Of a DNA stretch of 64,000 bases, positions 2,341-24,892 are shown piece by piece (positions within the stretch are counted from its first letter, which is position 1; each line of letters starts with the position of its first letter). The notes beneath the pieces are model-generated. The model was not told the DNA's origin. It was given only the letters and a program-made list of their open reading frames with translations, and did no database searches. A program made the position numbers and the translations under genes. This DNA is from Margaritispora aquatica (taxonomy: Eukaryota; Ascomycota; Leotiomycetes; Helotiales; Discinellaceae), in NCBI GenBank assembly GCA_007644065.1, contig VJWN01000013.1, forward strand, positions 124,001-188,000, read 5' to 3'.

Positions 2341-4279
2341 TTATGAATAGCGGGTTTGATGAGATGGGTCAAGACACCCAATGCCGTAGCATCTGTGAGG
2401 AGGTCCAGTAGGGTGGTCCTCATATGAGTTTTGAGCTCTGGGATTTTGGGCTCTGGGATCTTGGTATGAATAATTCTGGCTAGCGTTGTTTGTGGTGTAT
2501 TGATATAGTAGTTGATCGTATGAATATTGTGGTTGTTGTGGCTGAGAGAACTGCGATTGCGTCGAGTGTTGTTCCTGGTATTGTCCTTGGCCTTGCGAGG
2601 CATAGGTATTTGGGTGATTGTATGGATCTTGTCTCATGTCGTCGTTCATATAATGCGACTGTGGGTGCTGATATGAAGGATGAGTTCCTGTCTGAGGGAG
2701 GCTTAAAGCTGGTGCAAAGTTAACTCCAGGGTACTGCCTATTATCCATCGGCCAGGATGGTGGTTGTTGAGAGTTCCGACTAGAATAGCTTGGATCTGGG
2801 TACCCGCCCATCTGAGATGGCTGCCAATTTGTAGACTGACCAGTCTCAGAAGATCCTCGATGCATGGATCCTCTCTTTGTTGATGAGGAGGATGTCCCTG
2901 GTCGGTGGGTGGTCGAGCTTACATGAGACGAAGAAGGATAATTGGAGGCTCCACCAGTAGTTGAATTGGAATGGCGCTTTGACGAAGTATGAGACGACTT
3001 GCCACGAGGTGGAAGAGGCGGATGGACGTCATTGTAGGCAGCGACGATTTTCCACTCGTCATCCTTGTCAACGGATCCGATGAAAAGAACTTTCACATTC
3101 AGTTCGATAGTGTAGACTTTTGAATAGCACAAGCGAGATGCTGGTAAGAGCCTATGCTGCGGATTGAGCGGGATGACTCTGATGTCCTCCTTTAAGAGTG
3201 GCCTTTCCCCAGGCAACAGCTCAGGTCGATAGTTGGTATAAATCATTGCATGATCATCTGGTTTTACCCCACGCTTATTGGTACCTTGCCCTTCATATCT
3301 ATAGTCTAGAGTAAGTAAAAATCTCCTAAGCATGTGATAGGCTAGCAACTTCCAGGGTGAAATGTCATGCATGTCGATAAGTAACAAATATGTGCAAAAA
3401 TGGTCTATGGAAAAGATGAGCATAGGACTTACGTCATGATGGGCCTACAAGAGTCAGTTGAGTGATGTTATAGAAGGTAGTAACAACACTTACAAGCAAA
3501 TGCAATGTGCGACATCTTTCTTGATGACTACAAATCGCCTAGTCTTTTGTATGATGCTCTGTCCTTTTGAAAATCTCTGTGAATATGTTGAATTCATCGT
3601 CGCACCGTCATCGCCAGTAGGCTCCGGCCACAAAATTTTGAATACCTAGGCCATATAGATTAGCAAGACCCGCGATTGATACAGTTTAAGGATGTTGTAC
3701 CTTCCCAAACTTGAACCTCCAACCCTCTTGAACACTATACTCTGAGTAGATGGTATCAGTGCACCATTGAGATTGGCTTTGAGAATAGATACCTACGTGG
3801 ATCAAATTCTTCTGTCTGTCTGGAACGGTCTGCTGGTTCTATCATATATCTGGTGCTTGGAACAGGGTTTAAAGCCGATTCCAGTTGCACTCCGGCAAAC
3901 TCGTCGGTCAAATCAGAAATAGGATCATTTTGAGAACTATACTCTGACTCCTGCCGTATTGTATAATCTCTTTCGCCTCCATAGGGTCCATCTGATGGGG
4001 GGAGAATTCTTCTTGACGACCTTTCATCATCATATGATGCCTGGTTCGGAACTCTGGCCGCAAGTCTCGGTGTCATTTCAGGATCTTCAACATCATGTTC
4101 GTCTAATCCACGGATTAGTTTCTGTGACCTAAATCACAACAAGATATTGTTATCTTACGTCTTGACGATGCTCGATGTCTCTCCTTTCTTTCTCCGCTCT
4201 TGCCTGCGGGTAAGCCAAACAAATCAGTTCGTTGACTAACCGATAGCCTCCTGTGTTTTTTCTCTTTGTCAGGAGACAT
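2341..4279 (-). CDS. DUF6590-type protein A with Q/N/S/Y-rich tail
   Basis: Six exons, read on the minus strand: 4279-4159, 4102-3797, 3741-3701, 3645-3494, 3444-3433 and 3298-2341. They total 1590 bases, or 529 aa. The start is the ATG of MSPDKEKKHRR. The DUF6590-like core (about residues 157-300) begins VFKILWPEP, continues with RRFVVIKKDVAHCICLPIMT and EGQGTNKRGVKPDDHAMIYT, and ends near DEWKIVAAYNDVHPPLP. The 12-base exon encoding the PIMT turn and the 41-base exon are kept in paralogue B (as 13 and 41 bases), which supports the model. The tail (about 300-529) is low-complexity, rich in Gln, Ser, Tyr, Asn and Pro, and prion-like in composition. No signal peptide or membrane segment is seen. 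The family is fungal and its function is unknown to me. It sits head to head with the coiled-coil gene at 5079. Confidence 0.8.
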
Positions 4280-5078
4280 GGTACGAAAAGTTCGATTGCA
4301 AGTAGCAAATAGAAAAATGTACAATAGTAATAGTGTTTGTACTTTGACATAACTGATGAGGAGATCGCTCACTATATATGCAATTGCTTGCATGAATTTG
4401 CGAGATGCGGCTCAACAGTGATCAATCAAAGTGCATCACATCCACACCTCCGAGAATGTGGTTGATGTTGTTGACGATGGTATACATCTTGCATAGTCGA
4501 TTGGGAAGTATTGGTTGTGAGACGTTGGAAAACGAGGGATGAGTGCAGAAGAGGGGTTGAGGGGGTCTCGAGACGAACCGACTCTCACGGCTCCAGCCGT
4601 TGTCCCCACAATTCACAGCTCGCTTCGACAAGGGGGGAGGGGACGCTTGAATGGACTTATGCAAAACTTATGCATCAAGGTACTGGGCTAATGCTACACA
4701 AACTTTCATTCGTTGCTTTGGCCGAGAATGTATATCGTCTTCTCGATAGCGTGGGGGGTTTCGGCCGGGCTGGTCATGCAAGATTTGTACTCGTTGCTGC
4801 TATAAGAAATTAGATAAAAGCCAATCGATACCTGGTAACAATCCCGAGGACACAAGCCACAAGAAACTCCTAATCTGCACTCTCTCTTCAGCCGCGAGCC
4901 GCCTGACAACAATACACACACACCTCCCGTCTCAAGGGGATGTGCCCCCCAAAGATCGACAGATTGACCGAAACATACGTTCTTTCCATCTCAAGCCTCA
5001 TATCAGAAATGCCGATTTTACTGGACACCACTTCAAAGTTCACGAGCACGACTATAGACAACGCTCACTCATACTGGG
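4280..5078. promoter_or_regulatory. Divergent intergenic region of pair A
   Basis: This 799-base gap separates the two start codons of pair A and must hold both promoters. It contains a near-direct repeat of acttatgca at about 4656-4675 and a CA-rich stretch at about 4912-4926. No certain TATA box or operator was identified. Pairs B (762 bases) and C (796 bases) have gaps of almost the same size. Confidence 0.55.
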
Positions 5079-7262
5079 ATGCTTCCCTCTCCACATCAAC
5101 AATATCAGTGTCGTCAAAATGTGAGGCTGGTACGAGAGGCCGGGAGACGGCATGAGACAAGCAACTATCCCGGATACTGGAAACTCAAGGAGATATGTTC
5201 TCGGAAAAAGGGAGGCCATTCGAGTCAGTCACTTTCAACTGGGGAGAATTCCAAAAAGACTCCCAAACGTCCGAGACGCAAGACGACCCACGTTATCCAA
5301 CAACCTGCCAGCAGTTCTGAGAAGAAGCCAGTCTACGATATGCAAAGGAAAACGGATGATGAAGATGTGCAAACGAATAAGATGTTGCCAGATAGCCATT
5401 CACTTGTGTCATTGGAGAATATTTCATGCGGGCTCAGACCCTCATATGTGACGAGCTCACAGTCTGTGCCTTTGAATGTTAATCGCTCGAAATCTCTAAA
5501 CTATGAAACTCCTTCCGACACACTCCTCTCCTCTTGGAGTGCACCCGATCCTGTCTCTGCGGTTCTAGACTTACCACGATCCGTGGACGCTGAAATGAAA
5601 TCACAGCCAGAAGTGCAAGAAAGCTATAAAGATTCTAAAGTGATATTAGCACCAACACGTAGCCACTCTCACAATTCAGTTGTTCTTTCAGATGACCAAA
5701 ATACTCTAGCGGTGGGTGCAGAGGCACTTCCAGGTATTGAGCAAGGTACGACACCGCAGCTCAATATACAAGATGGTGATTTAGATATCCAAAAAGATGA
5801 AGTAAAGGACTCTCCCTGGCCAAATATACTACCGCCTCAATTCGGGGTATTTGGAGAACTTCAACATCAAAAAATGCATATAATACCATACCACGGGTTT
5901 CAACAAAACGAAGAACATTTTGAAAGGAGACCACAGAATCACGCAGGTTTCTGGGAAGAGTGGTCAGCAGTCTCACATTTAAGGACGAGCGTTTTGGTAT
6001 TAAGGTCGAGAACGCATGGAATGAGAAGAATTATGAGAGATATGCAGCTCAGGAAAACAGCTGCAGAAGATAAATTGGTCCAGCGAGTGCTCCAGCAAGA
6101 GTTGGCTTCAGGGTCAACTTCAAGGACAAAGGAGCGTTTCACACCAAAAGAATCTATTCTAGACCTTGTCCGTGATTCTCAGGAGGCTCGCGATGAGTTC
6201 GGGCCTTTTGAAGCAAAGTGCACAGATCTCGAGGATCAACTGTATCGAGACGAGTTCAAGCTCCATCAACTTGAAGAGCAGATGTATTTGCGATGGAATG
6301 TAGTGCCAAACCTTCGCGTTAATTATCAGGAGGAATATCATGAGCCACATCAATTTTTTGAGAATTCTCCGATTCCGAGCATACAATTCCGAGAAGATCA
6401 GAAAGAGTACGAAGAAATCAAATATCATCCTCTGGTGGAGCAATACTTGTCCAAAAAAGGCGACCTCGAAATGATAAAGGAGCAATTGTATGAATTCGAG
6501 GAGCGGGTATATGATTTGCAAGAAGATCAAGAGTCGCGTGCGAGATATGGATTATCGCTTTATGCTGAAGACGAGGAGTTTTTGGGCAATTCCTCCGCAA
6601 ACAGACGAAAGATAACACAAAATATCTCGGAGAATGAGGAACAACTCCAGAAATTGAAGGCAACGTGTGAAGCCATGAAGCTCGTTGATAAGAATGGTCA
6701 ACCCACAACCGGCGAAGAATGGAAAAATATCGAGATTTACGAAGAAAACAAGACAGGGATCATTCCTGAAATGACAGAAGATTCTTCTTTCGAAATTCTC
6801 GTCACGCATCCCGAGAAAGTCTACCCAGATTTCACCTCAGATTCTTCTCGCGAAGTTGCAGAAGCTGCCCATTCATCACAAGCTACTAGCGATCTTGCCC
6901 ATAATCTAGTAGAAATTTGGATGCTCATGGTAATGAGATGCTCAATCATAGAAGCCAATCGCCTTGCAACATGGTCCAAATCACGAGGTGTCACAATCTC
7001 GGATAACTGGCAAGATTCAGTTCTAGAGCTGTGGTTCAAAGATGGCTCTTCCAACTCAATACCTGTCAATCCCAGGACTACGAGCTTGTCAACTCAAGAG
7101 CCTATCGAAGCACGCAAGAAAGCGCCCATCAAACCAATATTTTATGATGATCTGCCAATGAGGAAGAAACCTTCACCTCCACATGTGCAAATTCGACTTC
7201 CTTCGGCTCTTTCTGTGGTCATCACTGATATTGACGACGTTATGGGTCCTACTTTTGAGTGA
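5079..7262 (+). CDS. Coiled-coil protein A, partner of DUF6590 gene A
   Basis: An uninterrupted 727-codon frame; the start is uncertain. ATG 5079 is the first in frame, and ATG 5340 (MQRKTDDED) is an alternative that removes a basic, low-complexity leader. The first 300 residues look disordered. From about residue 350 to 545 the protein is strongly charged and helical (RDSQEARDEFGPFEAKC, EEIKYHPLVEQYLSKKGDL, then Glu/Gln/Arg-rich heptads), consistent with coiled coil. A C-terminal module (about 607-655) carries IWMLMVMRCS and DNWQDSVLELWFKDG. The ARDEFGP, YHPLVEQYLSK and NWQDSVLELW blocks recur in the plus-strand gene of pair B, and the first and last recur in weaker form in pair C, so the three are paralogues. 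Unlike gene B this copy has no intron in that part. No known domain is recognised and the function is unknown. Confidence 0.75.
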   Translation: MLPSPHQQYQCRQNVRLVREAGRRHETSNYPGYWKLKEICSRKKGGHSSQSLSTGENSKKTPKRPRRKTTHVIQQPASSSEKKPVYDMQRKTDDEDVQTNKMLPDSHSLVSLENISCGLRPSYVTSSQSVPLNVNRSKSLNYETPSDTLLSSWSAPDPVSAVLDLPRSVDAEMKSQPEVQESYKDSKVILAPTRSHSHNSVVLSDDQNTLAVGAEALPGIEQGTTPQLNIQDGDLDIQKDEVKDSPWPNILPPQFGVFGELQHQKMHIIPYHGFQQNEEHFERRPQNHAGFWEEWSAVSHLRTSVLVLRSRTHGMRRIMRDMQLRKTAAEDKLVQRVLQQELASGSTSRTKERFTPKESILDLVRDSQEARDEFGPFEAKCTDLEDQLYRDEFKLHQLEEQMYLRWNVVPNLRVNYQEEYHEPHQFFENSPIPSIQFREDQKEYEEIKYHPLVEQYLSKKGDLEMIKEQLYEFEERVYDLQEDQESRARYGLSLYAEDEEFLGNSSANRRKITQNISENEEQLQKLKATCEAMKLVDKNGQPTTGEEWKNIEIYEENKTGIIPEMTEDSSFEILVTHPEKVYPDFTSDSSREVAEAAHSSQATSDLAHNLVEIWMLMVMRCSIIEANRLATWSKSRGVTISDNWQDSVLELWFKDGSSNSIPVNPRTTSLSTQEPIEARKKAPIKPIFYDDLPMRKKPSPPHVQIRLPSALSVVITDIDDVMGPTFE

Positions 7263-9344
7263 ATGAGAAATAGGCGAAGATTTATTTTCTTTCGGCAAAG
7301 CTGAGTTTTGCAAGTTACTAAATTGAAGCTTTCCTTTGTTCACGACCTATATTTTGTTCTGAATTTAGCGTATGGATGGCTTGGCGTATTTGGATCTTCT
7401 GGGATACTAGATACGGCGTTTGTTTGAGAGCAGCGTATACCAGAACACATGTATTATGTTGGATCAATTTATTTATTTGTACATTATACCTAAGATAAAC
7501 TAACCTTTGTATATCCCCATATTGCTTTGTCACAATGTCATACTAATACAGATATTGATAACGAATATAAGTATCGAATTCGGCTCAAGGCTCCAATCAC
7601 TCACTCCACACATCCATCACCCAGAGCAAACCCGAACCAACCTCCAAATTACGAAATCCTACGCCATTTCAATTCTCAATATTCAAATTCAAGCAGCAAC
7701 GAGGCAAACAAGGCAGTCAAATTACCGGCGTGCATACAGCCTGGTAAGCAGTCACGAGCCATGCGTAATTATCATATGACAGTAGAAACCATGAACTTTA
7801 CATAACCTGGGCAAGCATGATATGACCTAACGTGCAGATCAGATTGGACAGGATTGCGATGTCTCGATGCAATGCGCTGCGCTGCGTAAGTTGTGTCACT
7901 TTGTGTGATGGTCACCGGCATCGATTACCGTCGCGATTCTATATTTGTGGGGGGGCTGAGGAAGAAAAAATTGCAACTTGTGTGAGGTGGGCAGATCTGA
8001 GATTCATGGATGATGCGATATATCGGGATGAGCTGCTGTGCGATAGAAAAGCTTGCGGAGATACGTCCGAAATGATGTGAGTTAGTTGTTTGGGATTTGG
8101 AGGAGAAACGGCTAGGTTGGAGAGGATGCAGTTCTTAATTTGGGACTCGTGCTGAAACATTATTAGTTATTTATTTTAAGTCTCGTTTCAAGTCTGATTA
8201 CCGAATGCTTAAACTGGATTGAACTGGTTAGGCGAGTTGCTAGTTAAATCGACATTGGCAACAAACGTATTTTCTTTCCAGCGCGGCTAGTTGTACAAAA
8301 AATAGAAGGTAAGGTTTCAGTATGTTTGTTAAGAGCCAGGTGGATCATTTTGGAGTGATGGGTAACTAATCTACTTATTCTACTCCTCGAGAGAAGTTAT
8401 TATCTATCTTAGTTGACAGTGAAGATTTTATGTTTAATAAATATATATATAATAAACTATACTCGATTGATTACGGACTTGACTACAATAAACCTGAACG
8501 CCCCTGTCCAGTTTATAATTTGTTGCAGCTTATTTATTCATTTAGTTTTGTAAGCACCTTTTGGTAACCCTAGAGAGACACAAAGTATCTTTCTGTAGGG
8601 CTATATACAAGACTTTGTAGATGTTGACCTTTGTAGTTACAGTTCATTCTCGGTAGGCTCAAGTGATGGAGATAGTACTCTCACTATAGAATGAAAATTT
8701 TTCATCTACTCTTTCAATTGTGTGCCTTGGGTTTCAGCAAACTTTTAATAATATAGTTAACATATCTATGAAGTGGAATATGCTCCTTTGTCCCTACAGA
8801 GATCACCAAATTCAAAATTCTGTACGTGACATTGGTAAGATACATTATTATCTAGCGGAGCTAAGCAAGCTAGCCTCAGAGTACGGGCCTATCTTAGCCT
8901 ATGGCCGAGTATGTAATTTCATTCCTTTCCCTAGATAGCGAGCCCAATAAGGTTAGTCAACGGACACGAAAACTAGGTCCAGCCATAACTGTAGCAATTA
9001 TTCCCCTCGCTTTCGCAGTTCCTTACAACAAAAACACATTTGAGCTGCAAACTGCAAACTACAAACTGCAAACTTCAAGGTGGATTCTACTGACATAACA
9101 TGTCCTACGACCACTCGCTCCTTGGAATTAGATGCTATATCGAAAACTACGAGCCATGCAAATCAGACTCCGATATCCAACCAACCAAGAACTACTCCAA
9201 TACATATATATTACCGATGGGACTAAAAGTATAACCCTCCCCGAGTTAGTGTGCAATGTTCAGAATTCGCAAGAGAAATGAAGTGAATACATTTTTGCTT
9301 TCCTCGAAGACGTTTGAGCATCTCTACGGCACAAAATCGACTTA
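7263..9344. other. Gene-poor spacer between pair A and the F-box-like relics
   Basis: About 2.1 kb without a supportable gene. It becomes visibly AT-rich around 8160-8760 (including a run of TA repeats near 8440). Short frames at 7507-7805, 7832-8080 and 8720-9098 resemble no family and lack coding texture. Confidence 0.5.
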
Positions 9345-10240
9345 TGTTCTAGACCATCCCTAAAACCTCGGTTATTTCACGATTTGCCAAATGAACTCCA
9401 CTTACAGATCTTCGAGTTGGTGAAGGGTCCGGCAGCGGCAGAAGCATGGAAACCCAGATATGGCCTTGGGGCTAGAGACATCAATATTTCCGATTGACAT
9501 CTCGCTGATTCCAAGAAATCAGCATGTCTACGGAAGTCCTTCTGAATTACCCAGAGCAATTGCGAGAGCTGGAGGAAGCCTCGAATATATTTCTATAGAG
9601 GTCTCTCTTCCTCGTAACTATTCTTGTTTTAACTCAGGTGGTAAAGATACCACATTGCGGAAAGACTGAAAACTTTCAAGTTCAGAACAAATTCGCTGGA
9701 CTGTTGTAAAGTAAAGTCGAGCATCTTTTGCTATTGTAACATATACTCATCTTCAATAATCAACTCAGACCACCTCGAGACTCTAGACCTGAACTTCATC
9801 TGCTTCTAGAATGTAAGAAGCCCACCGGATTTTAGCATGGAACCTTTGCTTACCTCGATATCTTAGCCCCCATCGTTAGATCTTACACTTGGTGGTGCTA
9901 TTCTCCATATCCAAGAGTTAAAAGCATTTACGCAGAAGCTAAATCCTTCACTCGGTTGGACTTGAATGGCTTGTTCTTGCTCAGTGGGACCTGGACTGAC
10001 GGTCTTGAACTATTGAAGCTTCATTATCTTAAATAAGAGCTTCATTTGATATTCATTACAGAAAGAGAGTAATTGGATGTCACTGGAAGATTTGAGGGAT
10101 CTCGATCAAATCTTCTTCGGCTCACGTCAAGGCCTTGCAGTTTTGCCGAATCTCGCTGAGCAACATTTTATAGGTCTGAGCAGTACAAAACCTTTGGACA
10201 TATTTCGCGAGGATGAGTATTAGGTGGAAGTTGAGTCATG
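9345..10240 (+). pseudogene. Relic of an F-box/LRR-like gene (copy 1)
   Basis: Coding remnants lie in different frames. Around 9373-9426 the DNA reads LFHDLPNELHLQIFELVK, which matches the consensus LPxEhhxxIhxhh of fungal F-box domains. Downstream, near 9957-10035, another frame reads TRLDLNGLFLLSGTWTDG followed by LELLK and a stop. That resembles the conserved C-terminal strand-turn (LxLxxhxLxxGxWxxLLxhLR) of fungal F-box/LRR-like proteins. Frames are broken by several stops in between, and no intron set restores one. I read this as a decayed gene copy. A second copy of the same C-terminal motif follows at 10578-11303. Confidence 0.5.
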
Positions 10241-10577
10241 AAGGTTAAAGAAGTATTTCTGAACCTAGTGTGCTCTCACGGAGCACCTTTTCGTTCTTTC
10301 TCTAATTCTGTGCCTATAGAGCGAGAACGGCTGAAAGAGTATATCTGCTTCGATGAGGATGTATAGCTATATTTCAAAATATGGGATTATTATATTTACT
10401 CAAGAAGTGAATCTAAATTATAGAGTTGTGATTAATTATGAGGCGCAATCTATTATAGATCTAATTATTTTGTATTTCTCTTAGTATAGAATTCATAATT
10501 TATATGGTATATCTAGTATCTAAAATCAATTCTGAATATCAAATATCTGTCTGACCTCATTTTACAAATGTAAATGC

Positions 10578-11303
10578 GTGTCTGTTAGAAAACTCCCACC
10601 CACTCACTTCGAGCTCAATATAACACTCCCAGAGTCCTTCGGTCTGCTCACGAGATGGCACGGGCGGGAGATTATAAGAAGAGCAGTTCAATGCCTCAAA
10701 TCTCTCAAGTTCCATCCCCTTGGAATTATCACTCCCAATTCCAACAATGTTCTTTTACAAAAAAATCTCGACCCCCTAGCTGATTTCATAATTCTCATGT
10801 CAAGCACTTCATCCCTAAAGAGCAACGATGTAAACCTTTCAACTCTACGCGCATTGGCTAGACCGAATTCTGTCACTTTCCAGCTAGTTGATATCAGTCG
10901 AGTATTGACTACCCAAAACAGGCAGAGTCTGACACACCTTCATTGCGACTTCGTGACGTTCAATTTAGCGAGCTTCTCTCAGATGTTCATACAAGCAGAT
11001 CATATGCAGGTTGTATCTCTACGTCGCATGGACCTCTCGCATGGGGAATGGGCACAGCTTCTGGATATTCTTCGTGCTCGAAAGGTGAGGCGAGTGGTGA
11101 TTAGGGATATCTTTGTCAGAGAGAGCGAGGGACTCTCACAGCAAACTGTGAATTACATACACTCTGATGCTATGATGTCGCACAGCCATGAGCAAAGAGA
11201 TACCAACTGGGCTGAAGTCTACGCCTCGGGCGTTATCGATAAATATCTCATGGCGGGTCTAAGGCATCTGCGAGACTGTGGGAGGGATTGCTATGGTGGA
11301 TGA
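10578..11303 (+). CDS. F-box/LRR-like protein fragment (copy 2), probably truncated
   Basis: A 241-codon open frame. Its C-terminal half has the look of fungal F-box-associated or LRR-like proteins: an Ala-Asp-His-Met-Gln strand leading into VVSLRRMDLSHGEWAQLLDI, then RKVRRVVIRDIFV. No F-box is present at the N-terminus and the start codon lies just after very AT-rich DNA. The gene is therefore probably a 5'-truncated relative of the relic at 9345-10240, or the surviving 3' exon of one original gene. It could be an intact small gene, but I think that less likely. Function unknown. Confidence 0.4.
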   Translation: MSVRKLPPTHFELNITLPESFGLLTRWHGREIIRRAVQCLKSLKFHPLGIITPNSNNVLLQKNLDPLADFIILMSSTSSLKSNDVNLSTLRALARPNSVTFQLVDISRVLTTQNRQSLTHLHCDFVTFNLASFSQMFIQADHMQVVSLRRMDLSHGEWAQLLDILRARKVRRVVIRDIFVRESEGLSQQTVNYIHSDAMMSHSHEQRDTNWAEVYASGVIDKYLMAGLRHLRDCGRDCYGG

Positions 11304-11926
11304 CTGCGTTGCTATGTTGTACATAGTGTAAATTTAGGATCTTGAATATAAATATGCCTCCGCATATAAATCTGCATGTTCACACAACTTCACCTACTCC
11401 GTATTCTACGGATCTCTCGGATTTCCAATAGAAGGTCATCAAACGGGGTCAAGCCGTGGCTGAAGCTAGATAGGTGAAGTGAGCGAGCATGGTATGTTTG
11501 CTGTTTTTCGATAGAGCCAAATCTGTTGAGTCAGCATAGCTAGAGTTTTTAAGTAAGCCATTATAATGTCTGCCTCCTGGTTGCTTTGAAAAGGTTCAAG
11601 CTATTTCTTTGAATCGAAATCTTCGAAAATATCATCAATTTCACGTGATATGGGTTACCGTGCAGGACCCTGCATTTGAAGAATTTCTAATAGGGTCATC
11701 AATTCCTTGGAATTAATGCTAAGCCAAGCCAAAGCCAAGTCTAGATTCTCACAGCTCTCTCTAGCTCATGTCGTCACCAAAACAGTTGTTGAAAGTCTTG
11801 ACCACACGTCATGGCGCCAGATACCCGGTTAGCACCAAGTGGTGAACAAATAAATATCTTGACGAACAACGACTCACAAAATTTCAATTCTATATCTACA
11901 TGAACAGATATAAATCACTTTTCAAA
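11304..11926. other. Spacer upstream of SDR gene
   Basis: About 620 bases with no gene seen. It contains the promoter and 5' leader of the dehydrogenase gene. A second in-frame ATG lies at 11900, but the Rossmann motif follows ATG 11927 directly. Confidence 0.5.
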
Positions 11927-12766
11927 ATGAAGATTGCAATCACAGGAGCCCGAGGCACAGTCGGCCGAGAAGTAGTGAAAGCATGTGCAGCAGCCGGACA
12001 CTCAACCGTTCAAATCAACCGGTCAGAGCAAGAACACGACGGCACCAAGAACTCAGAGATGCGAATTGCGGACGCCGCCAACAGCTACGATGACACAGTC
12101 AAAGCCTTTCGTGACTGCGACGCCGTGATCCACCTCGCCGCCCTCCCCAACCCTGTCGGCAAGGAGGACTGGCAAGTGCACAGCAACAACGTCAACGCCG
12201 CTTTCAATGGGATGCGTGCCGCAGCCGAAGTGGGCATCAAGCGGTTCTGCTACGCTTCCTCGGTGAATGCTATCGGCCTGGCTTACGCCAACCAGCCTTT
12301 GGCTTTCCCGTACTTTCCGATCGACGAGGCCTATCCCCAGAAACCAACGGACTCGTACGCGCTAGCCAAGATGGAGGCTGAAGTACAGGCACATGCGTTT
12401 GCGGATTGGTTTCCCGGGATGAATATAGCGTGCATGCGTATCCATGAGGTTGCGTCCTTGGAGGAGGTGAGGAAGGAGCATGAGAAGAATTGGGACGAGG
12501 CGGGCGTGAAGCAGCTTTGGGGTTGGGTTAGTCCGGCTGCGACAGCGAGGGCATGTCTCATGGCTGTTGAAACGGATAGGCTGAAAGGATGCGAGGTATT
12601 TAATATCATTGCGCCAACGACAACGCAGTCAACTCCTTCGAGGGATTTGGCAAAGAAGTACTTCCCCAATGCGGAGATTAGGGCTGGGCTTGAGGATAAC
12701 AAGTCATTCTTTACGAGCGACAAGGCGGAGAGAATACTGGGCTGGACGCATGATGAGAAGGAGTGA
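11927..12766 (+). CDS. NAD(P)-dependent epimerase/dehydratase family protein (extended SDR)
   Basis: A single exon of 279 aa. The start is set at ATG 11927 because MKIAITGARGTVGREVV is the usual beginning of this fold; ATG 11900 would add nine residues. The N-terminal GARGTVG is the glycine-rich nucleotide-binding loop (GxxGxxG class). DAVIHLAALPNP matches the conserved strand after it, FCYASSVNAIG carries the catalytic Ser region, and SYALAKMEAE holds the YxxxK catalytic pair. Family members act on nucleotide sugars or uronates (for example uronate dehydrogenase). The substrate here cannot be read from sequence. No signal peptide, so probably cytosolic. The gene is intronless and its third codon positions are clearly richer in G and C (GCC, CTC, ATC, AAC) than neighbouring genes, so a different history, possibly transfer, is worth testing. 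Confidence 0.85.
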   Translation: MKIAITGARGTVGREVVKACAAAGHSTVQINRSEQEHDGTKNSEMRIADAANSYDDTVKAFRDCDAVIHLAALPNPVGKEDWQVHSNNVNAAFNGMRAAAEVGIKRFCYASSVNAIGLAYANQPLAFPYFPIDEAYPQKPTDSYALAKMEAEVQAHAFADWFPGMNIACMRIHEVASLEEVRKEHEKNWDEAGVKQLWGWVSPAATARACLMAVETDRLKGCEVFNIIAPTTTQSTPSRDLAKKYFPNAEIRAGLEDNKSFFTSDKAERILGWTHDEKE

Positions 12767-13959: not shown

Positions 13960-16079
13960 TCACTCCTCCTCTGAAGCAGAATGGTCCTCGTCATCTTGAG
14001 GTTCATACACTGTTTCCTCTTCCTGATAAGGGAAATCGTAGTCCTCCGGGAACTCTTCTTCAACAGGTTCTTCCTCGGCTGGCTCTCCTTCAATATCTTC
14101 CTCAAGAACTTCCCCATAATAACCTGCTAGGTTCTGCTCAGACTCTGCAACCTGTACAGAATAGGACTCGCCATAGTTGTAGTCTTCCTCGGAAGGCTCT
14201 TGTTCAATGGGTTCTTCTTCGACCACTTCGTCACACACTACCTCATAGTAGTTGTCTTCGGCACTCTCTACGTCCTCGGCTGTATTATCTTCTAGCGATA
14301 AACCCTCTAGAGATGGCACTTCTTCGCTCAAATCTGCAGCCGCTGACTCGAGCTCTTCTTCGGGTAATTCCAAATCATCTTGCTCAACAGCTGCGGCCGT
14401 TGGCGTATACCCCAGAGAACTTGCCTCTTCAGGTAAAGGCCCGAGATCTCCATTTGGTTGCATTGACCTGCTACCGAGAATTGCGTACGAAGATGGCGTC
14501 TGAAACGAAGCTGATACTGGTCGTGATGATGTGCCTTGATCGCTGGCCCATTGAGATTGTGCTAGACCTCCATTGAACTGAGCGTATGGTTGTTGGCCTG
14601 TGTATTGTGACGGACTATATGATCCACGGGACATCCCATAAGAAGGATGCTGCTGAGCAGCATATCCACCGTCATCTCCACCCATCGCGAACATGGATGT
14701 ATCTTGCCGAGTCTGCAGGTGCGATGCAGTCATTGAAGGTTTGGTAGGTAGAGGTGGATGCACGATATTGTAATCTGCCGTCATCTGCCAATAGCTGTCA
14801 TCGACCAATTTCCCTATAAACCACACCTTGACATTATACTCAACGGTATAAGTTTTGGCATAGTTCAGGCGAGATGCAGGATCCAGCTTGTGGCGTGGGC
14901 TAGCCGGTTCGACCAACAGCGGCATCTTTGTAAGTTTTGATTCTTCTCCGGGCAGGTACTCCGGGTGCTCAGTACTGTGAATAATAGTGTGATGTTCAGC
15001 ATGAACTCCATTCTTGTTCACTCCTTGACCTCCATACTGATTCATGTATTAGCTTCTCTTATATGAAATTTATACAAAAGAAAAGGATCATTCTGCGAGA
15101 TCTTACTGTCATGATTGGCCTCTCTTCGTTAGCTATTTTCCATCAAACAAGAGCAGAAATACATACAAACAGATGCAATGTCCTTCCATAGGATTGATAA
15201 TAAGAAAGCGTCGGACTTTCTCGTGCACATCTCCATTTCTTCCAGACCGGATCGTTACCGTGTCTTCTGAATTATTTCCCATCCCACCACCGCCATTACC
15301 TTTCGGCTCAGACCACAACACTTTAAATATCTAGCATTTTATTAGCTACTCACTTCAGACAGCTGGGTAGATGTACCTTGCCAGTTTTGAATACGGCAGG
15401 CTTCTGAACCTTGTAGTCTTTGCAATGTTAGAAAGCTCAAAATATAATATGGGGGAGTTCATTCTTACGAGGATCAAATTCCTCTCTCTTAGTAGAAGGA
15501 TCTCTTGTGGTTACCCTAGTCGACTGCCAAACCGGTGGCGGATTTTGTACGACTTGAGCGACGGGATTGAAGTATGATGGTGTGGTATTAGAATTTATCG
15601 GTGTTAGTCTCGTGCCCATGGGGTTCAGTGGAGCGGTGGTGTAGGCATTAACTGTGTAGCTGTGTAAGTACAAGACTTTCCTTCCCAATTTCAACTTGGC
15701 AAGTTCCTCAGAGACTCGCTGCTGTCAAAATATGTACAACAGTGGGCAATACGAACATTCCGGATAATGGCCATTCGCAGCAGGTACTCCAAACCCTCCA
15801 AAGGGACCCGGTATTCGAGGTCTCGATTCACTCGATGAAGCAGTCTGAGGTGGATTATAGTCATATTCGTACACTCCTAGTATTGGTTAGGTTGTCTTCA
15901 TAATAGCTTTTACTGATATCCTTACCGAGACCCGTCAGGCGGTATCGCTGATAACGATTCTGATTCACGTCAAACGCCCAATCAGACCACGCGGATGGGT
16001 ATTCAGACGCGAATGAATTTACATTCGAGTTTGAATGAGAACGGTGAGAGTGCCTTGGTCTCCTTCGATTCGAAGACAT
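13960..16079 (-). CDS. DUF6590-type protein B with long acidic tail
   Basis: Seven exons on the minus strand: 16079-15926, 15876-15757, 15714-15469, 15417-15377, 15330-15167, 15119-15107 and 15036-13960. They total 1815 bases, or 604 aa. The 42-base second intron is the least certain junction. The N-terminus (MSSNRRRPRHSHRSHSNSN) is basic and Ser/Asn-rich. The DUF6590-like core runs from about residue 188 (IFKVLWSEPKG) through VRRFLIIN, GHCICLPIMT and YGGQGVNKNGVHAEHHTIIH to WQMTADYNIVHPPLP at about 330. After a Tyr/Gln/Ser/Gly-rich spacer, roughly the last 200 residues are extremely Glu/Asp-rich with repeated EEEP and EEPVEEE blocks. The core and two tiny exons match gene A; the tail does not. 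It stands head to head with the coiled-coil gene at 16842. Molecular function unknown. Confidence 0.8.
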
Positions 16080-16841
16080 GACGCCAGGCGCAGCAAAGTG
16101 CGATCAACGCTCCCAAATGAATGAATGCTGCTGCCACGTCTGAAGAGTCCAACACCTGTCTCTCTCACTCGTTTTCAAGAGCGGGGTGTCCCCCGCCTTG
16201 TTCATAAATAGTCGAATGGATGTAGAGGATATGAGGCTCATGGAGGGACCACACACACCAGTCTCATTGCAAGTTGAGTCTGGATGCCAAATCGGCATCG
16301 AGTCAGGTATATGTGCTTGCATATGCATTGTATTGTTGTCCTGCAAGTGAAATAGTAGCCAGTCAGATATGTTTGGATAAGCCAGACGCGAGTGTGACAA
16401 GGACAAAGCATGAATGATAATTCGTCCCTCGGCTAGTGAGGCTTTTTGCCGCTTTAGGAAAGGTTGCTGATGTTGGAAAGGGGACCAATCGGATAGCTCG
16501 TAGTGGGTCTCGCGTGAGGAAATGAAAACAAACCCCACGCTCTTCAAGCCACGAAGGTCAAAACAGGGCTGTAATCTCATCTTTCTGATGCACCACACCT
16601 TTCCACATATGGACCAGGCGCCCAATGTTACTGAGGCTCTTCTGTAAAGCTTCTGTGTCGCGGTGTAAATATTTCAGCCTGGTACTTTGAATGCCGTGAA
16701 GAGCTTAGACGCGACGACGACGACGGCTCATATCGCTCATCAAGCTTCAGTCTTTGGCCTCTTTGCATCGCTAATAGCTAGTATCATTCACAAGGTGGGC
16801 GACTGGGCGATCTTGGGCATGGAGACCACAATATTTGCAAT
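16080..16841. promoter_or_regulatory. Divergent intergenic region of pair B
   Basis: The 762-base gap between the two pair B start codons. It contains a small plus-strand frame (16687-16935) that overlaps the next gene out of frame and is probably not translated. No clear core promoter motif was recognised. Its length closely matches the gaps in pairs A and C. Confidence 0.5.
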
Positions 16842-18904
16842 ATGGAACAGGGTGATACCAAACAACAGCCATGGAGTTTGTGGGTTATCGAGCCTCCACT
16901 ACTCACCGATACAGCGACAGCACACAAGGCAATAAATGAGTCAAATAAGAAATCGCTCATGCGTACAGATGTATCTGCTTTGAAACAGAACCTGAGTTCA
17001 GTTGTTCAGCACGACGTGGCCCTTAGATATCTAAGTCCAGAAACCAAAGATGTTCACATTTCGGAAAGAGAAACGGAATCATTACCGGATAAGCACACAA
17101 ACATATCACAACAAAGCCCAGATCAGCGATTCAATCTCAAAACGTCTTCATCACTTCCAGAAACCACACAAAGGAACGACTCATCAAGGTCTGTGTCAGG
17201 AATGCGACCTCGCCCTTCGTTCGATGAAGCACCAAAGCTTCTTTCAAAAACTTCTTACATTGAATCTGAAACCCCTGTGAATAGTCCAAATCATGAATTT
17301 GGATTACCTCCTCTCATGAGTGCTCGAGAAAAAGATACACCCAATGTCAAATGGGAACAAATCCAACAACTTCGAGTGGATGTGTGGTCATCAAGGTCTT
17401 TCATCCACCAAATCAGGGCCAGCTTGCGACAACAGCAATATCTCAAATCAGATGCTGATGATAGTGAGTTGGTTTTTGCTTAAAAATAATCTTAATAAAG
17501 AAATCTCTAAGAAAATTCTGATCGGTACTGTTCGTCACTAATTTTGATTTGATTTACCTTGGGGTGATGATGCTAACTACATCACTCAGTGCTCATCGGA
17601 AGACTGAGAATACAAGAACTCGGCGGCAACTTTGCATATCCCAGTCTCCCAAGCCACGGCCAGAAGAGTCTAGATCAATTACGGCAAGAAGCTCAAGACG
17701 CAAGAGATGTCTATGGACCTCTGGAGGATAAATGCAACAATCTAGAGGACCTTCTAAGTGCTAAAGAATTCAGACTTTCTCAGCTCGAGGAGGTATTCTA
17801 TTCTCAGAATGTGGCACCAGTCCCAGAAGTGGATTCCGAAAAGATTACTCCTCTTTCTGAACAATATCATGAATCACCGCGACGAGACTGGCGAGAAGAT
17901 GCATTTGAGGACATTACGGATATTCAATATCATCCTTTGGTCACGCAGTATCTTTCCAAGCTAGGCGATCTAGATCTTCTCCAGGAGCGACTGGACAACT
18001 TGATGGATGAGAAAGAGTCGTTGGAAATAGAGAGAGAATCTCGGTTCGTAGTGCTTCATTATGATTCAGCTCATTTTCATCTGCAAATTTTCTTATCAAT
18101 TATGTTCCTGGATTTTCCCGAATTTTCCGCACATTCTCATGTTCTAATTCTGACATTCCAACTAGTCTTCGCTTCGGACTTGCTCTAGCTCCGGAAGATC
18201 AGATCTGGCTCGACGGCTCACAATACGAGCACGACTCCCTTCTGAACCAAATTCGAAATCTCGAGAACGAAACCGAGCATTTAAGGCAAATATGTCTTGA
18301 AAAGGGTCTTGTGGATGAAGACGACGAGCCTACAACTTTTCAGGATCAGGAGGAGGATTCGTTCAAAGAAGACAAGGAGGTGTACCCGGGAGACCAGATT
18401 TCCGAATTCACGAAATTTCCACTGTTACTACCACATCCAGGAATCGCGCAGGACGGCATGGAGTTCGAAAGCTACAATCCTATGCCTGACGCGACTTCTG
18501 ATCTCACCACCACCCGCATCAACCAGTGGATGCTGCACCGACTGCGCATGTCTCCTCTGGACGTCAATTTACTAGCCAGCACATTCGAAGACACGATCGG
18601 GAAAGTCGATCGTACGTGGCAACACTCTGTACTTTCAATGTGGTACAACGACGGGACTGTGAAAGCTACACCTGGATCTCATACCCATTCAGGCTCGCTC
18701 ATCACTGAAGAAGGTGGACCGACCTCTGGTTCAGCGCCCATGCAATCGATGCTCAGTCCTGTTTTCAATGACTTCGATTTTAACTTCAATTTGCATACAG
18801 CTCTTTCAGAGACGGATAGCTCTGTGGATACAGAGACTGCCATACCGCGAGGACGACCGCCTTTTTTACCACCACAAAAACCACTATTTTGGAACGGCGA
18901 ATGA
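16842..18904 (+). CDS. Coiled-coil protein B, partner of DUF6590 gene B
   Basis: Three exons, 16842-17463, 17590-18043 and 18166-18904, total 1815 bases or 604 aa. The second donor (GGTTCGT) is weak, but phase and paralogue alignment support it. The start MEQGDTKQ resembles MGQGNSTE of gene C, which supports this ATG. The N-terminal 170 residues look disordered. WEQIQQLRVDVWSSRSF opens a helical section, and SLDQLRQEAQDARDVYGPLE plus DIQYHPLVTQYLSKLGDLDL are the most conserved blocks against gene A. The following heptads suggest coiled coil. The C-terminal module (about 472-520) has NQWMLHRLRMS and RTWQHSVLSMWYNDG. No membrane segment or known enzyme motif was seen. The conserved pairing suggests joint function with the DUF6590 protein, but this is inference. 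Confidence 0.78.
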
Positions 18905-21227
18905 GAGGAATTTTTTCTTTTGTATTTGGGGGGCACAATTATTTACGTCTTGTAAAACTGTATTTTAATTTTGCTTTACTTCTTGTTTGGTATATTTAGC
19001 GAGCGAGCGAGTACAGCACGGTGTTTGGAAGAGATGGATTTTATCAGACTTTGAGTTTGGAGGATGATACCCAGAATAGCTTTAGAAGCGTGTAACATGA
19101 TTTTCCGGCCACCGATCTCTTTACTAGATACCATCATCTCTTACTCTATTCCTTTGCTAAGACTGCCCAGGAATGGATCCTCCAATCCTTTTTCTCGTTT
19201 TACGAATGCAATCCAGCTGCCTCTTCCGTCCACACCATTGCGGGTAAGGCAACCCCAAAGAAGCCTCACCCGGGCGCGCAACAAAAATCAGCATCTCCAT
19301 TCCCAACTCTGCAACAAGCAGCTTCGAACGAAACACACCTCACACGTGCAAACTCCTGTAAGTAAGAGTGCCACAAGAGCGGCGTTGGTTTGATACACAA
19401 AACATCCTCTCGGGCTAGTGCATCCTTTCCATCCTCTTACACAACAGCATTTACAGACACCCCACGTTTTTTTGTAAATCATAAGAGGGAGCTGGGTTCA
19501 GCCTGTTGTGTGACGCAACCCTCTAATTAGACACATGACTCCTTTTGTCGTATCATTTATGGCACAGCACTATTTCTTCCGTATCTTTACCGTATTTCTA
19601 TCCTATCACTATCTAGAGAGGGAATACCCTTTGGGGAATCCATAGCACTGATCCACTCAGTAAATAGTACCCAAGCCATACATAGTCGATGCTGAACTTG
19701 CATTCGCATATATGTACTGCACATCGAGAAACGGCCATGCACTTCCATCTCTAATCGCAGCTTATCTGCATATGCAACGCTCCGGTGTTAACGATTCCTC
19801 ATTTTGTCAGCAAGTCAGAAATGAGACACCACCAAGCTTGGGTGTGTCCAAGCAGCTGGGATGTAGTATCTGGGGGTGGCACCCCACTGTGGATACAACC
19901 ATATCCGGGACATGGGCGTGCATGCTTGGTGGGTGCGGGATGTTTCTTGACTGTTCAGGGGTCTGTTGTGAGGTTGTTTGTTGACAAAGATGAGCCGAGG
20001 ATGTTCATCAATGGAAAAATAACAATAGTATGTGCCTCAAGCCAGAACAGTTACACTCTTCAGAGCAGTTGAATGAAATTCGAGCAGCGCCAGTGATAGA
20101 ATTACGGAAACAAAAGTAATATACTTGACAAAAGAACTTCTTTCGATGATCTTGCATGGCATGATATGCTTCATGTTTGTCCATGATAATCATATTCAGC
20201 AGGGTGTAATGCCCGTTGGTACCCTTATATACCCCTCCGACTGGTCTAGATCGAAGATGGCTAAATGCAGATGTTGGTAAGACTACCAAACAAATATGGT
20301 ATTGCTGCTCTTCAGTCCGAGTTGCGAAAATGCATTTAGCCATATCGTATGTCTTGTTCTTCCATTCGAAGAGACCTTGGAGTGCTGGACAAAATGCCTA
20401 CTCGGTGTCTACTCGGTGTCTACCTGCCTATTAATGAGTTCTCTCTCCCGACCTGTACAAGCATTTGAGATGCCAGAGTTCAACTGAGGAAAGCGTGCGA
20501 AATCTGCCGTATGAATTCAAGGGTTCGGCTAGCTAAGGAACATATTTGTCCGTGAAAACAACTGAAAAGTAGAAGGTGTGCTAATAATTGCCATCAGTGT
20601 CTCGCTATTCGACACTCATTGACACCTATGATTGCTGCTATGAGAGTATGCAACTCCTTGACATCACGATGGTAAGAAAACCATCGAGGTAAAATGAGCA
20701 AGTCATTCTAGTGCAGTAATATGTCTGCCATCCAAGCACACCCGCTATGTAAACTCGTCGCCTCTGCGACTCTGCCTTTAGAACATGAAATTGATGCAAT
20801 CACTTACTCCTGAGCAGTGCCATCTGCCAGCAGGAGTAAAGAAAGCGAAACGTATATGATGTCTGCGCGCCGGCAGTAGGAGAACACCAAGTCCCAATGT
20901 GCTCCAAGTTAAAATCCATGTTAACCTAATTGGAAAATATCAATACAGAGAATCGAGCTCGATAGGTGATCGTAGTCGATAAGCGTTGTTGCTGAGCATG
21001 GCGCATTGCTAAATTCAACCTCTTTTGACTCCGAGAACGGCTGACCTCCAAATCTCCAATCGAAAGTAAAACAACGGATAATTTTGCTGTGTTGAGCGAC
21101 AACAAATATCCTGTTTTCAGCTCCCGCACTGATTCAGTCCTTTGTCTGTGCTGGTCCATGTCGTATATCCTCCTCAATCTCTCTATCTGAGTTTGCTCCC
21201 TGAGTATGTGTCTCCGAAACTACTCGG
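18905..21227. other. Spacer between pairs B and C
   Basis: About 2.3 kb with no supportable gene. Short frames at 19064-19393, 19712-20072, 20008-20343 and 20926-21177 show no family resemblance. The 3' UTR of coiled-coil gene B probably lies in 18905-19100, which is T-rich. Confidence 0.5.
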
Positions 21228-22677
21228 CTAGTGTCCACTGGGCCTTTTCTTTGGATCTGGGCCTTCGCATGGCTCGTTGCCAACCCTTTCAACATAACGT
21301 GTCAACCGCTCCAAGGAGTTGGGGTGTACATATCCGATGTTAAGCACTTTCGCATACATCTCCACTGTATACAGTTTGCACAGATTCACTCTGGACATCA
21401 CCCCAAGATCTCCTTCGTCTTCACTGACAACTCTGATGGCAGTCAAGGTCAAGCCTTCTTTCACGACTTTGCCGGCAATCTTCTTTGATTGCTCTTTTGG
21501 TGCTTCCTTGTCTGTATAGATAATGACGTGCTTCTTAACATCTGGCAATCCAGGCTTGAGACAAGCTTGATTTTCATAGGTATGAATCGGACTGTGGTTC
21601 TTACTCAGCATAATCAGTCTCGAATCATAGCTCACTTACCAGCAAATTGTATTTCCCCAATTCTTCCGTACGACCACAAAGCGACGGATCTTCCAATGCC
21701 CTACACCCCTAAGATATCCAGCCTCGGTTTGTTGCCTGACGATCTCCAAACGTGAGGCAGCATCGCTACGTGGACCACCTGTTTTTGACCCAGGGGGAGG
21801 GATTTGTACATCATCTCGTGCGGGTTCGGTCCACAAAGTTGAGAAGACTCTTCCCACTTTCCAAAACTTGTCAAGCCTTTTATTTGAAATCGTTTTGTAT
21901 CCTAAGTTGAATCATCAGCAACAATGAAAATAGTACAGCGCACATATGCCTACTTTCATCAAGTATCGAACTTGAATATCCCTGACTGCTATTGGTGTAT
22001 CTCTTCGAGGTGGAGGGACCATAGCTTGCTCCTAGTATTGAGGTTAGTCGAATAACGTATTGTAGTGTCTCTTATATCATCACACCTTCGGGAGGCGACC
22101 TAGCGGCCGTTTGTGGCCATCCATGTCCCATGACATCCACGGAAGCATTGCCACCCAGACCATTGCTAAGGTTCCCCGAAAAATAACTGGGATGAGCAGG
22201 TTGCTGAAGACTTGAGTTAATAGTAGATCGCTGAAAGCGAGAGTTTAGAGAGTTGGCCTCATCGTTAGACATAGAGTTGGCGAGTTCATTCCTGTACTTC
22301 GGTGTCGAGTATTGAGTTGTAGCTGACACATCATGGGTGAAAGTCGGCGAGCCACTGGTACTCAGAGGAGAAGATCCAAAAGTCAGTAGCGTATCTGGAA
22401 TCTTGGTATTCCTCTGATTGCGTGGTGTTGACGGCGACTTTTCTTCGAGTAGTTCCTGATGCTCAAAGTTTGCAGGGTCTCCATTAGAAGGATAGTAAAA
22501 TTGTTCATTGCCATCGACAAATCTCGAGCAATACCAAAATCCGCGTTTATCCCACATTGGCTCGCTCCAAGGATTCGACCTATCAATAGCTTTTCCAGCA
22601 TGGTGAGTGGACATTGTTGGCCCAAATTTCTGAGTGGTACGAATGCATTGCTGTTGCCCGGCTACGCTTGAGGACAT
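21228..22677 (-). CDS. DUF6590-type protein C, tail-less
   Basis: Four exons on the minus strand: 22677-22086, 22031-21954, 21901-21640 and 21591-21228. They total 1296 bases, or 431 aa, from MSSSVAGQQQC. An N-terminal block (WSEPMWDKRGFWYCSRF) precedes a Ser/Thr/Asn-rich linker. The core starts near residue 240 (VGRVFSTLWTEPARDD), continues with IRRFVVVRKN, TICCPIHTYENQ and HVIIYTDKEAP, and ends with MYAKVLNIGYVHPNSLERL and a stop soon after. It is the most divergent of the three copies. It has lost the intron before the VF(K)xLW block and the tiny exon present in A and B, and it ends at the core without the 230-270 residue tail. It could be a shortened but working gene. It is head to head with the gene at 23474. 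Confidence 0.75.
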
Positions 22678-23473
22678 TAAATAGGTAGGCTTCGCTGCAG
22701 AGCCGCACGAAAAGAAACGACATGGCAGTATAAGGAGAGGAGAAAGCATGAGGAGCCAACACACCTGTGCTGTTCGTTTACACTACTGTAGAGCGCCATC
22801 TCTATCCCCGCTTCATTGGTATTGTAGATACAATGCGAGTGATGCTCGACGATACTCATGCAACCATCTTGTCGGGAGCAGCCATCCCTTGTAAGATGCG
22901 CAATATACTTAATGGGGTTAGATCAAATAAATAAACGAATGATTGGGAAGTGTAAGACACAAGTGGCCGCTTTAAGCAAATATATCGGAATTCTATCCTT
23001 GCATGTGGAACGGAGTAATCTGTTGATTGCCATCATTTATGAGGCTGTCCAATGTCCTGGATTGAGAAAGTAAGATGAGAGAGAATGACTTTGCAAAGGA
23101 AATGAGTGTAACCTCATTGTTGATCCTTCACTACCTTGCATACATGATATCATTGAATGTGAGCGAAAGAATTTCTGTGTTCCATGTCCTCTCTTTCTTT
23201 CTAATCTCCAACACCAATCCACTTGTCTTAGGAGCATTGGACAGACGATTTGATATATGTGTTGGCATTGCATTGGATACTGCACTGACACTGTGCCCAG
23301 CAACCGGATGATCCAAGAGAAACACGAAGCCATTGGAGACAATTTCAGACCTGTCTTGGCAACTCATAAATTCTCAGAGCCCCAACATCTGTGAACATAC
23401 AGGTGTCCATGACGCTTCAGATTCAAAAAACCCGACATCCAGAAAACGAGATAGCTAATGGTTACCACTTGGG
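22678..23473. promoter_or_regulatory. Divergent intergenic region of pair C
   Basis: The 796-base gap between the two pair C start codons. Minus-strand frames at 22677-22859 and 23037-23367 and plus-strand frames at 22858-23311 overlap each other and look like chance openings. No definite regulatory motif was recognised. Confidence 0.5.
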
Positions 23474-24892
23474 ATGGGCCAAGGAAACTCAACGGAACGA
23501 CGCAACACAGGTAGTGGGAGTCAAGAAATCGAAAGACGAGGTCATGAGGAGGTGGAAAATGCGCAGGATATTGTGCTCCCTCTGGTGAAAAATGAAGCAG
23601 AATTGGCTGAGAATAAGGAGAAATGGATCGAAAAGGTTCGTTTCATCGAGCTATGCAATGCCCTAAAACGACTCGAAAGACTACAGAGAGAATCTACATC
23701 TGCTTGCATCGATGCAAGTCAAGTACACCGCGAAGCTTCAATTAAACGACAGGAGGCGTGGATTGCAGATGCTAATTTCATGACGGAGGTTCAGCACCTC
23801 ATGGCTGGAGAAACAGCAGCGAGCTTTGGTGAGCTCTCGAAATGCGCAATCGAGTGTCAGATAGCCCGAGATGAGCTTGGTCCCATGGAGCAGGATGTAC
23901 TTGAAGCCGAACAGAAATGGGAGGGCACGATTTGGAAGTTACGACAAGCAGAAACAAATTTCAGTGTCAATTTCAGAGAGGAGTTGGCAATAGCCGAAGG
24001 AAACGCATCAGAAAGTCAAATAAGTGTTGCCTCCAGTCCGTACAGATCTTCTTTTGAAGTGGAAAGTCAAGCATCAGAACAAGGCATGTTTGAAATTGAA
24101 GATCACGAATCGTATCGAACTTCTGGATCTGCAGTGTCGGCCACAAGCTCCGCTGCATTTCTACCTCCAGGTGGGACTCCGGGATATGACGATGATGATG
24201 AGAATTTCACAATGGATTCGATGCTTCGAGGCATCGACGACGGCGAAGCAAAACGGCGGATGGAAGAAGAAGATGCGAACGATTGGGATTCTGGGTTTGA
24301 AGACATTGACGAAATCCTACCACACTCACCCCCTCCTCAATACAGACTATCTGAGAGAATCCCGCTGCCCAAGGAGGCACATATCCGAAACATCTACAGT
24401 CTTGACGAACTTCTCACGGACTTTACTACCGTGAGGGAAAGAATCAATATGTGGCAAGATAACGCAGCACTATACTCCCGTGTCGAAGCTATGACGATGT
24501 TTACCATCATCAGAAGCCACATGGAAGGGGACATGCCGTCCAACTGGGCTCAATTTGTGATTGCAAACTTTGAGTCGGATAGGAGCGTGGATGAGCGAGG
24601 AAAATCACTGTCTGTTAACACGACGAGACAACCTGGCTTAACTGCTGCAAGCACACCTAGAAAATACCAGGTCCATACACCGGTACCCGACATATTCGCC
24701 CCTGCTTATGCACAAACATCCAGCAGCAGGGCTTCAAGTCACATGCAATCAATGAGTCTGAGTGATTCAGCTTTGTTAAGACCAGACATTGGTTCTCCTA
24801 TATCGTCGCTTTCTCAATCGCCCGCGCCACGATTTCAACAAATTCAACGAACCAGCTTCGAAATTTTCGAAAAACAACCCGAGCCACCTTGA
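23474..24892 (+). CDS. Coiled-coil protein C, partner of DUF6590 gene C
   Basis: An intronless frame of 472 aa starting MGQGNSTERRN, similar to the start of protein B. The N-terminal half is highly charged and helical: EKWIEKVRFIELCNALKRL, then ELSKCAIECQIARDELGPME, which matches the ARDxxGPxE block of A and B. The middle is Ser/Asp/Glu-rich and probably disordered (DDDDENF, EEEDANDWDSGFEDIDEI). A helical C-terminal module (about 317-370, VRERINMWQDNAALYSRV and SNWAQFVIANFES) corresponds to the Trp-containing module of A and B. The YHPLVxQYLSK block is not recognisable here. No catalytic motif, signal peptide or membrane segment is seen. Function unknown. Confidence 0.75.
   Translation: MGQGNSTERRNTGSGSQEIERRGHEEVENAQDIVLPLVKNEAELAENKEKWIEKVRFIELCNALKRLERLQRESTSACIDASQVHREASIKRQEAWIADANFMTEVQHLMAGETAASFGELSKCAIECQIARDELGPMEQDVLEAEQKWEGTIWKLRQAETNFSVNFREELAIAEGNASESQISVASSPYRSSFEVESQASEQGMFEIEDHESYRTSGSAVSATSSAAFLPPGGTPGYDDDDENFTMDSMLRGIDDGEAKRRMEEEDANDWDSGFEDIDEILPHSPPPQYRLSERIPLPKEAHIRNIYSLDELLTDFTTVRERINMWQDNAALYSRVEAMTMFTIIRSHMEGDMPSNWAQFVIANFESDRSVDERGKSLSVNTTRQPGLTAASTPRKYQVHTPVPDIFAPAYAQTSSSRASSHMQSMSLSDSALLRPDIGSPISSLSQSPAPRFQQIQRTSFEIFEKQPEPP

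Follow-up and report, generated by a model that had tools for sequence, protein, structure and literature searches.

Divergent gene pairs in Margaritispora aquatica that join a DUF6590 protein with a predicted MazF-type fold to an acidic helical partner

Introduction

MazF has an SH3-like fold and is described, in the excerpt used here, as unrelated to the other members of that fold (PMC7180214). MazF-type proteins are presented as prokaryotic in the available part of PMC8634880, and according to a passage of PMC2446400 no eukaryotic sequence passed the full criteria applied in that study; the catalytic residues of Bacillus MazF are given as Arg25 and Thr48 in the corresponding excerpt of PMC7354611. 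In a type II toxin-antitoxin operon the antitoxin gene usually lies upstream on the same strand and encodes a known antitoxin domain. For fungi, the nearest published notions are the two-gene cell-death cluster (PMC10197012) and the linked incompatibility pair (PMC12881547), and the passages of these two sources at hand do not mention MazF or PemK. Here we analyse a stretch of 64,000 nucleotides from the ascomycete Margaritispora aquatica (the window; contig C5, positions 124001-188000, within a genome of 42.4 Mb and 49 contigs) that contains repeated head-to-head pairs of a DUF6590 gene and a gene for a coiled-coil helical protein.

DUF6590 (PF20233), to which all eight genes reported below belong, has no function assigned in Pfam, and the family description shown there does not mention a divergent helical partner. 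Our literature search on MazF/PemK combined with fungi or Ascomycota returned no fungal MazF among the matches listed, and no paper naming DUF6590, PF20233 or IPR046497, presumably the accession for DUF6590, was found.

Results

The initial annotation had placed three such pairs (A, B and C) in the window, and their positions and orientations were borne out, with PF20233 present in the minus-strand gene of each and the coiled-coil genes lying opposite. As a description of the system, three pairs proved too few. A fourth (pair 0) lies directly left of the window at C5:117863-123962, and a second cluster with four DUF6590 genes (D, E, F and G) is located at 2.80-2.85 Mb on contig C47. The PF20233 profile search of the genome yielded 10 matching stretches corresponding to at least eight genes, four on each contig, a lower bound because the search scores only the best candidates. 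All eight exceeded the Pfam gathering cut-off of 27 bits; the best match was pair C (E 1.8e-28), A and B were also above the cut-off, and the four open reading frames (ORFs) on C47 scored 37-55 bits. A divergent neighbour of a helical family adjoins seven of the eight genes, and the eighth, G, has no confirmed partner. The features of the three pairs in the window are as follows (window positions).

2341..4279, minus strand: pair A DUF6590 gene (PF20233), hand-spliced model, start at about 4279 from ab initio prediction
3797-4101 (3' part), 3701-3741, 3494-3645, 3433-3444 and 2341-3298, minus strand: pair A DUF6590 domain exons, hand-spliced
4280..5078, no strand: pair A divergent intergenic region, 799 bp between the predicted starts
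5079..7262, plus strand: pair A coiled-coil helical partner, 727 amino acids, model without intron
13960..16081, minus strand: pair B DUF6590 gene (PF20233), hand-spliced, ATG at about 16081 from the reading frame
15469-15487 (part), 15377-15417, 15167-15330, 15107-15119 and 13960-15036, minus strand: pair B DUF6590 domain exons, hand-spliced
16082..16841, no strand: pair B divergent intergenic region, 760 bp
16842..18904, plus strand: pair B coiled-coil helical partner, 604 amino acids, exons 16842-17463, 17590-18043 and 18166-18904, thus two introns
21228..22557, minus strand: pair C DUF6590 gene (PF20233), hand-spliced, start at about 22557 from ab initio prediction
21954-22003 (part), 21640-21901 and 21228-21591, minus strand: pair C DUF6590 domain exons, hand-spliced
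22558..23473, no strand: pair C divergent intergenic region, 916 bp
23474..24892, plus strand: pair C coiled-coil helical partner, 472 amino acids, the most diverged member, recognized by profile match and alignments

All four C5 units have the same order and orientation, a minus-strand DUF6590 gene and a plus-strand coiled-coil gene, and none has been broken up, in agreement with the earlier claim that the unit duplicated and persisted as a pair. The predicted starts of the two genes are separated by 760 to 1370 bp, and an NAD-epimerase gene and other genes sit between units A and B. No direct DNA repeats of at least 30 bases joining the pairs were detected in window positions 1-26000, where the sole repeat family was a 12-base tandem repeat in five copies (615-692); the pair duplications are old. 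Gene models were obtained with an ab initio script, which missed small DUF6590 exons, followed by manual joining of exons at GT-AG sites. Given that this joining was partly guided by homology, the intron positions common to A and B do not count as independent support. The DUF6590 genes contain introns, and their 5' ends therefore lie past the ORFs of the initial annotation. The DUF6590 proteins carry an N-terminal motif of the WSxW...RYRL...YEYDY type (around window position 16081 in B and 22557 in C; residues 42-65 in the relative P0013), which forms confident beta strands in the P0013 model.

The paralogy of the three coiled-coil proteins, also proposed earlier, is established. A and B matched each other directly (41-42% identity over the core; E 1.9e-18 and 1.1e-18 in reciprocal single-sequence searches), as did A and the partner of pair 0 (E 1.5e-6). 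Searches with A, B or pair 0 as single query did not pick up protein C. A profile built from these three together with four relatives from databases recovered it (E 1.9e-7; each of 500 shuffles of C scored lower), so that the alignment of the plus-strand proteins is significant; with pair 0 left out of the profile the match was marginal (E 0.0054, one of 500 own shuffles scoring higher). Identity among the C5 coiled-coil proteins falls to 18-26%. The sequence blocks that had been listed as common to all pairs were only partly so: all four C5 proteins contain ARDxxGPxE or AQDELGPAE and a C-terminal tryptophan-rich helix block, but at the NWQxSVLxxW block B has TWQHSVLSMW and C has NWAQFVIANF, and on the DUF6590 side VHPPLP and the exact CLPIMT occur only in A and B. 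No unpaired copy was detected in the own genome at E <= 0.001, and among 1018 ORFs of at least 60 amino acids from the fetched loci and the window the family profile matched only exons of the four C5 genes. Two weak matches, on C15 (E 0.051) and C3 (E 0.018), were discarded, as neither gave a family-profile match even at E 1.

In the structure model of coiled-coil protein A, four long helices are confidently predicted (residues 292-349, 367-413, 458-495 and 503-539), and residues 1-293 and 660-734 are of low confidence, with disordered ends. A structure search with this model returned generic long helices only and was uninformative, and a Protein Data Bank (PDB) sequence search with the coiled-coil alignment gave a single weak oligopeptidase match (E 0.17). 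The domain scan of the partner proteins detected neither known effector domains (HET, NACHT and others) nor a MazE/AbrB, ribbon-helix-helix or similar antitoxin domain. All 12 partner proteins are net acidic, and the net charge of the DUF6590 domain is positive in 27 of 29 cases and neutral in B and F. With a simple pattern, basic stretches resembling nuclear signals were seen in several proteins.

On C47, each of the genes D, E and F has a divergent helical gene at a distance of 312 to 386 bp, and E has two tandem partners, E1 and E2 (positions 3077-4040, a spliced prediction, and 4473-5267 of locus L019). The proteins D, E1, E2 and F are weakly alike (leave-one-out E 1.3e-5 to 0.0055), each scoring above all 500 shuffles of itself. 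Homology between the C5 and C47 partner families was undetectable (hhalign probability 0.4%); the divergent arrangement therefore exists with two kinds of partner. The divergent side of gene G (locus L020, 7313-8300) consists of broken frames without a clear gene model and does not match the helical profile from C47 (rank 284 of the matches listed); it carries a REWRAIY block resembling that of partner D and is possibly a decayed partner.

The DUF6590 search returned 91 relatives, those with names being fungi, which we take to be nearly all Helotiales plus one Alternaria. Only four coiled-coil relatives were found, all metagenomic (three in one search and one more in a second). Neither search gave a coiled-coil match in the named DUF6590-bearing fungi; as the second also missed the known relatives P0002 and P0003, absence from these fungi is not established. 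Pairing beyond the three initial units rests on pair 0 next to the window and on the metagenomic coiled-coil protein P0003 and DUF6590 fragment P0059, which probably lie on one contig since the longest contig is 189,488 bases for both. In the trees P0059 falls into a group with A (support 0.83), and P0003 into one with A and P0001 (0.99); this A-type identity of both agrees with joint inheritance of the two genes. Copies of A type and B type are also present in other fungi. The predicted congruence of the two trees holds for the four C5 pairs, with both families splitting A and B from 0 and C, an agreement expected by chance in 1 of 3 cases. In P0007, P0016 and P0025, DUF6590 is joined to zinc-finger domains (PF26082, PF26176) or occurs in tandem. 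Two scans of viral contigs and one of prokaryote genomes confirmed no relatives of either family outside fungi.

The AlphaFold2 model of P0013, a close relative of the DUF6590 proteins, matched MazF/PemK/CcdB toxins in Foldseek and VIA-align; all 50 VIA-align rows were MazF-type or CcdB, with no other barrel among the matches listed. A PemK/CcdB-type SH3-like barrel is thus a well-supported prediction over the whole DUF6590 domain, flanked in the P0013 model by long segments of low confidence. For the profile comparison, ten MazF/PemK proteins (one of E. coli K-12, nine homologues from plasmids) were set against 29 DUF6590 domains; 27 of 52 rows of the DUF6590 alignment, having fewer than 160 domain residues, were dropped, P0026 among them. 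The global profile alignment gave nothing useful. The local one scored 25.6 (P 0.0013, probability 18%), a value reached by none of 400 column shuffles (best 20.9), with 12.6 for the reversed profile. It places the MazF catalytic Arg, presumably R29 in E. coli by count on the fetched sequence, on the first Arg of RRFVVI, and the MazF Pro on the conserved Pro of CLPIxTY. This Arg is invariant in 29/29 domains (the uncounted P0026 has Ala), as is the Thr of PIxTY (29/29), which stands one residue after the column of the MazF catalytic Thr. The PDB sequence search with the full DUF6590 alignment gave one match, the ribosomal protein mL68 (E 7.4e-5, profile positions 308-412), presumed to reflect the low-complexity tail of the alignment and set aside.

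Elsewhere in the window, an NLR-like gene at 44608-47055 (minus strand, two frames) carries an NPHP3_N NACHT-type domain (PF24883) and DUF7791 (PF25053), and PCA1-type heavy-metal-associated domains are found in one protein at 62338-63687 (plus strand).

Discussion

The DUF6590 pairs resemble MazF/PemK with MazE in the predicted barrel over the whole domain, in the invariant Arg at the position of the catalytic Arg and in the adjoining gene for a second protein, here acidic. As with MazF, the partner family varies by locus: seven of nine plasmid MazF loci have an AbrB/MazE partner, one a ribbon-helix-helix and one a PrlF partner. In contrast to the ten MazF proteins of 109-126 amino acids, the DUF6590 proteins have about 330-730 and disordered flanks, the Pro after the catalytic Arg is Arg or Lys, and the partner, unlike MazE, is a long helical protein that lacks a MazE domain. 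The arrangement of a type II operon was not found at these loci. Because both sequence-profile membership and an operon with a known antitoxin domain are lacking, the pairs are not filed as MazEF, although they perhaps work like MazF-MazE. The toxin-antidote-like function guessed at in the initial annotation gains structural support since DUF6590 is predicted to adopt the MazF fold; the toxicity and binding that it implies we infer.

We suggest that DUF6590 is a fungal MazF/PemK-fold domain and one half of a two-gene unit with a divergent acidic helical partner. The MazF-like barrel would bind RNA and probably cleave it, at a site to which the invariant first Arg of RRFVVI would belong and to which the likewise invariant Thr of PIxTY may contribute. 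Its helical partner would bind the barrel and restrain or direct it, and the shared divergent region would drive the expression of both genes and balance the two proteins. The overall logic would be that of an RNase and its inhibitor, with nonself recognition, antiviral defence or controlled RNA turnover as possible roles in fungi. An acidic partner facing a positively charged DUF6590 domain fits the sequestration of an RNA-binding surface. Fold and pairing are very probably real; that RNA is the target of the DUF6590 protein is an assumption we make with reserve, and the full mechanism, an RNA-binding or RNA-cutting protein of MazF fold controlled by its partner, is tentative. An unlikely extension would make this a eukaryotic MazEF-like system, in which MazF-derived DUF6590 RNases are silenced by divergent acidic helical antidotes, were amplified into diverging cognate pairs for nonself recognition or antiviral defence, and had their partner families swapped between lineages.

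Several observations set limits to the comparison with MazF and to the proposed RNase-inhibitor unit. All Foldseek matches to MazF/CcdB had E-values above 0.001, ten proteins gave no match at E <= 10 to PF02452, which we take to be the PemK/MazF profile, and MazF was not found via PHROGs, NCBIfam or other sequence libraries. The MazF catalytic Thr falls on the variable x of CLPIxTY, a column with Thr in 1/29 domains. Unlike MazF/PemK, the system sits in a fungus and its genes are divergent instead of forming an operon. Helical proteins are often acidic, which limits the weight of the acidity of the partners, and the 91 DUF6590 as opposed to four coiled-coil relatives speak against obligate pairing, with the proviso that the search was insensitive.

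The lack of conservation in the Thr column would also suit a reuse of the MazF fold as a non-catalytic RNA- or protein-binding module, the helical protein then being a permanent (constitutive) subunit of one complex with it, which may be nuclear, and no poison-antidote logic being involved. The fusions to zinc fingers or tandem copies, the basic nuclear-signal-like stretches in several proteins and the long low-confidence flanks of the models point in the same direction. We nevertheless regard this alternative as rather unlikely, given that Arg and Thr are invariant in 29/29 domains despite only 15-23% identity of the C47-type domains to P0013, and that eight diverged copies would be unusual for a constitutive subunit.

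Two tightly linked genes, possibly an effector and its controller, also recall the fungal cell-death clusters and linked het/vic pairs. In the consulted passages, tightly linked gene pairs are a usual form of fungal incompatibility system (PMC12881547), and two-gene gasdermin-protease clusters are described as cell-death units (PMC10197012). The partners here are likewise fast-evolving and multicopy, so that linked genes polymorphic between strains, whose mismatch kills fused or meiotic products, could be considered. The domain scans detected no gasdermin, protease, HET or NACHT domain in the pair proteins and no other known effector domain in the partners; this result and the A-type and B-type copies in other fungi, which fit old paralogues better than one recent polymorphism, make incompatibility or killer-type loci improbable.

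Adjacent genes often duplicate together, and many DUF6590 relatives have no detected coiled-coil relative; the pairs might thus be a divergent-promoter arrangement that was duplicated and never separated, its products having no functional or physical link. Such inertia is improbable in view of a pairing that survives both the drop in coiled-coil identity to 18-26% and the intervening genes between units, of the divergent arrangement repeated on C47 with a different helical family, and of A-type members of both families that probably lie together on one contig in another organism. Least probable of all is that DUF6590 is a small beta-barrel of separate origin which came to resemble MazF by convergence, for although no sequence library tried detected MazF, and SH3-like barrels recur in many contexts with MazF unrelated to the other members of the fold (PMC7180214, in the excerpt used), the VIA-align rows listed are uniformly MazF-type or CcdB, and none of the 400 shuffles equals the profile alignment that matches the active-site Arg.

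If the RNase-inhibitor unit proposed here is correct, DUF6590, a widespread fungal family, would gain a fold, a likely active site and a genetic partner, and the MazF-type proteins would have a eukaryotic branch arranged as two-gene units. It would also open the direct question of whether the DUF6590 domain cuts or binds RNA and whether its divergent neighbour blocks it.

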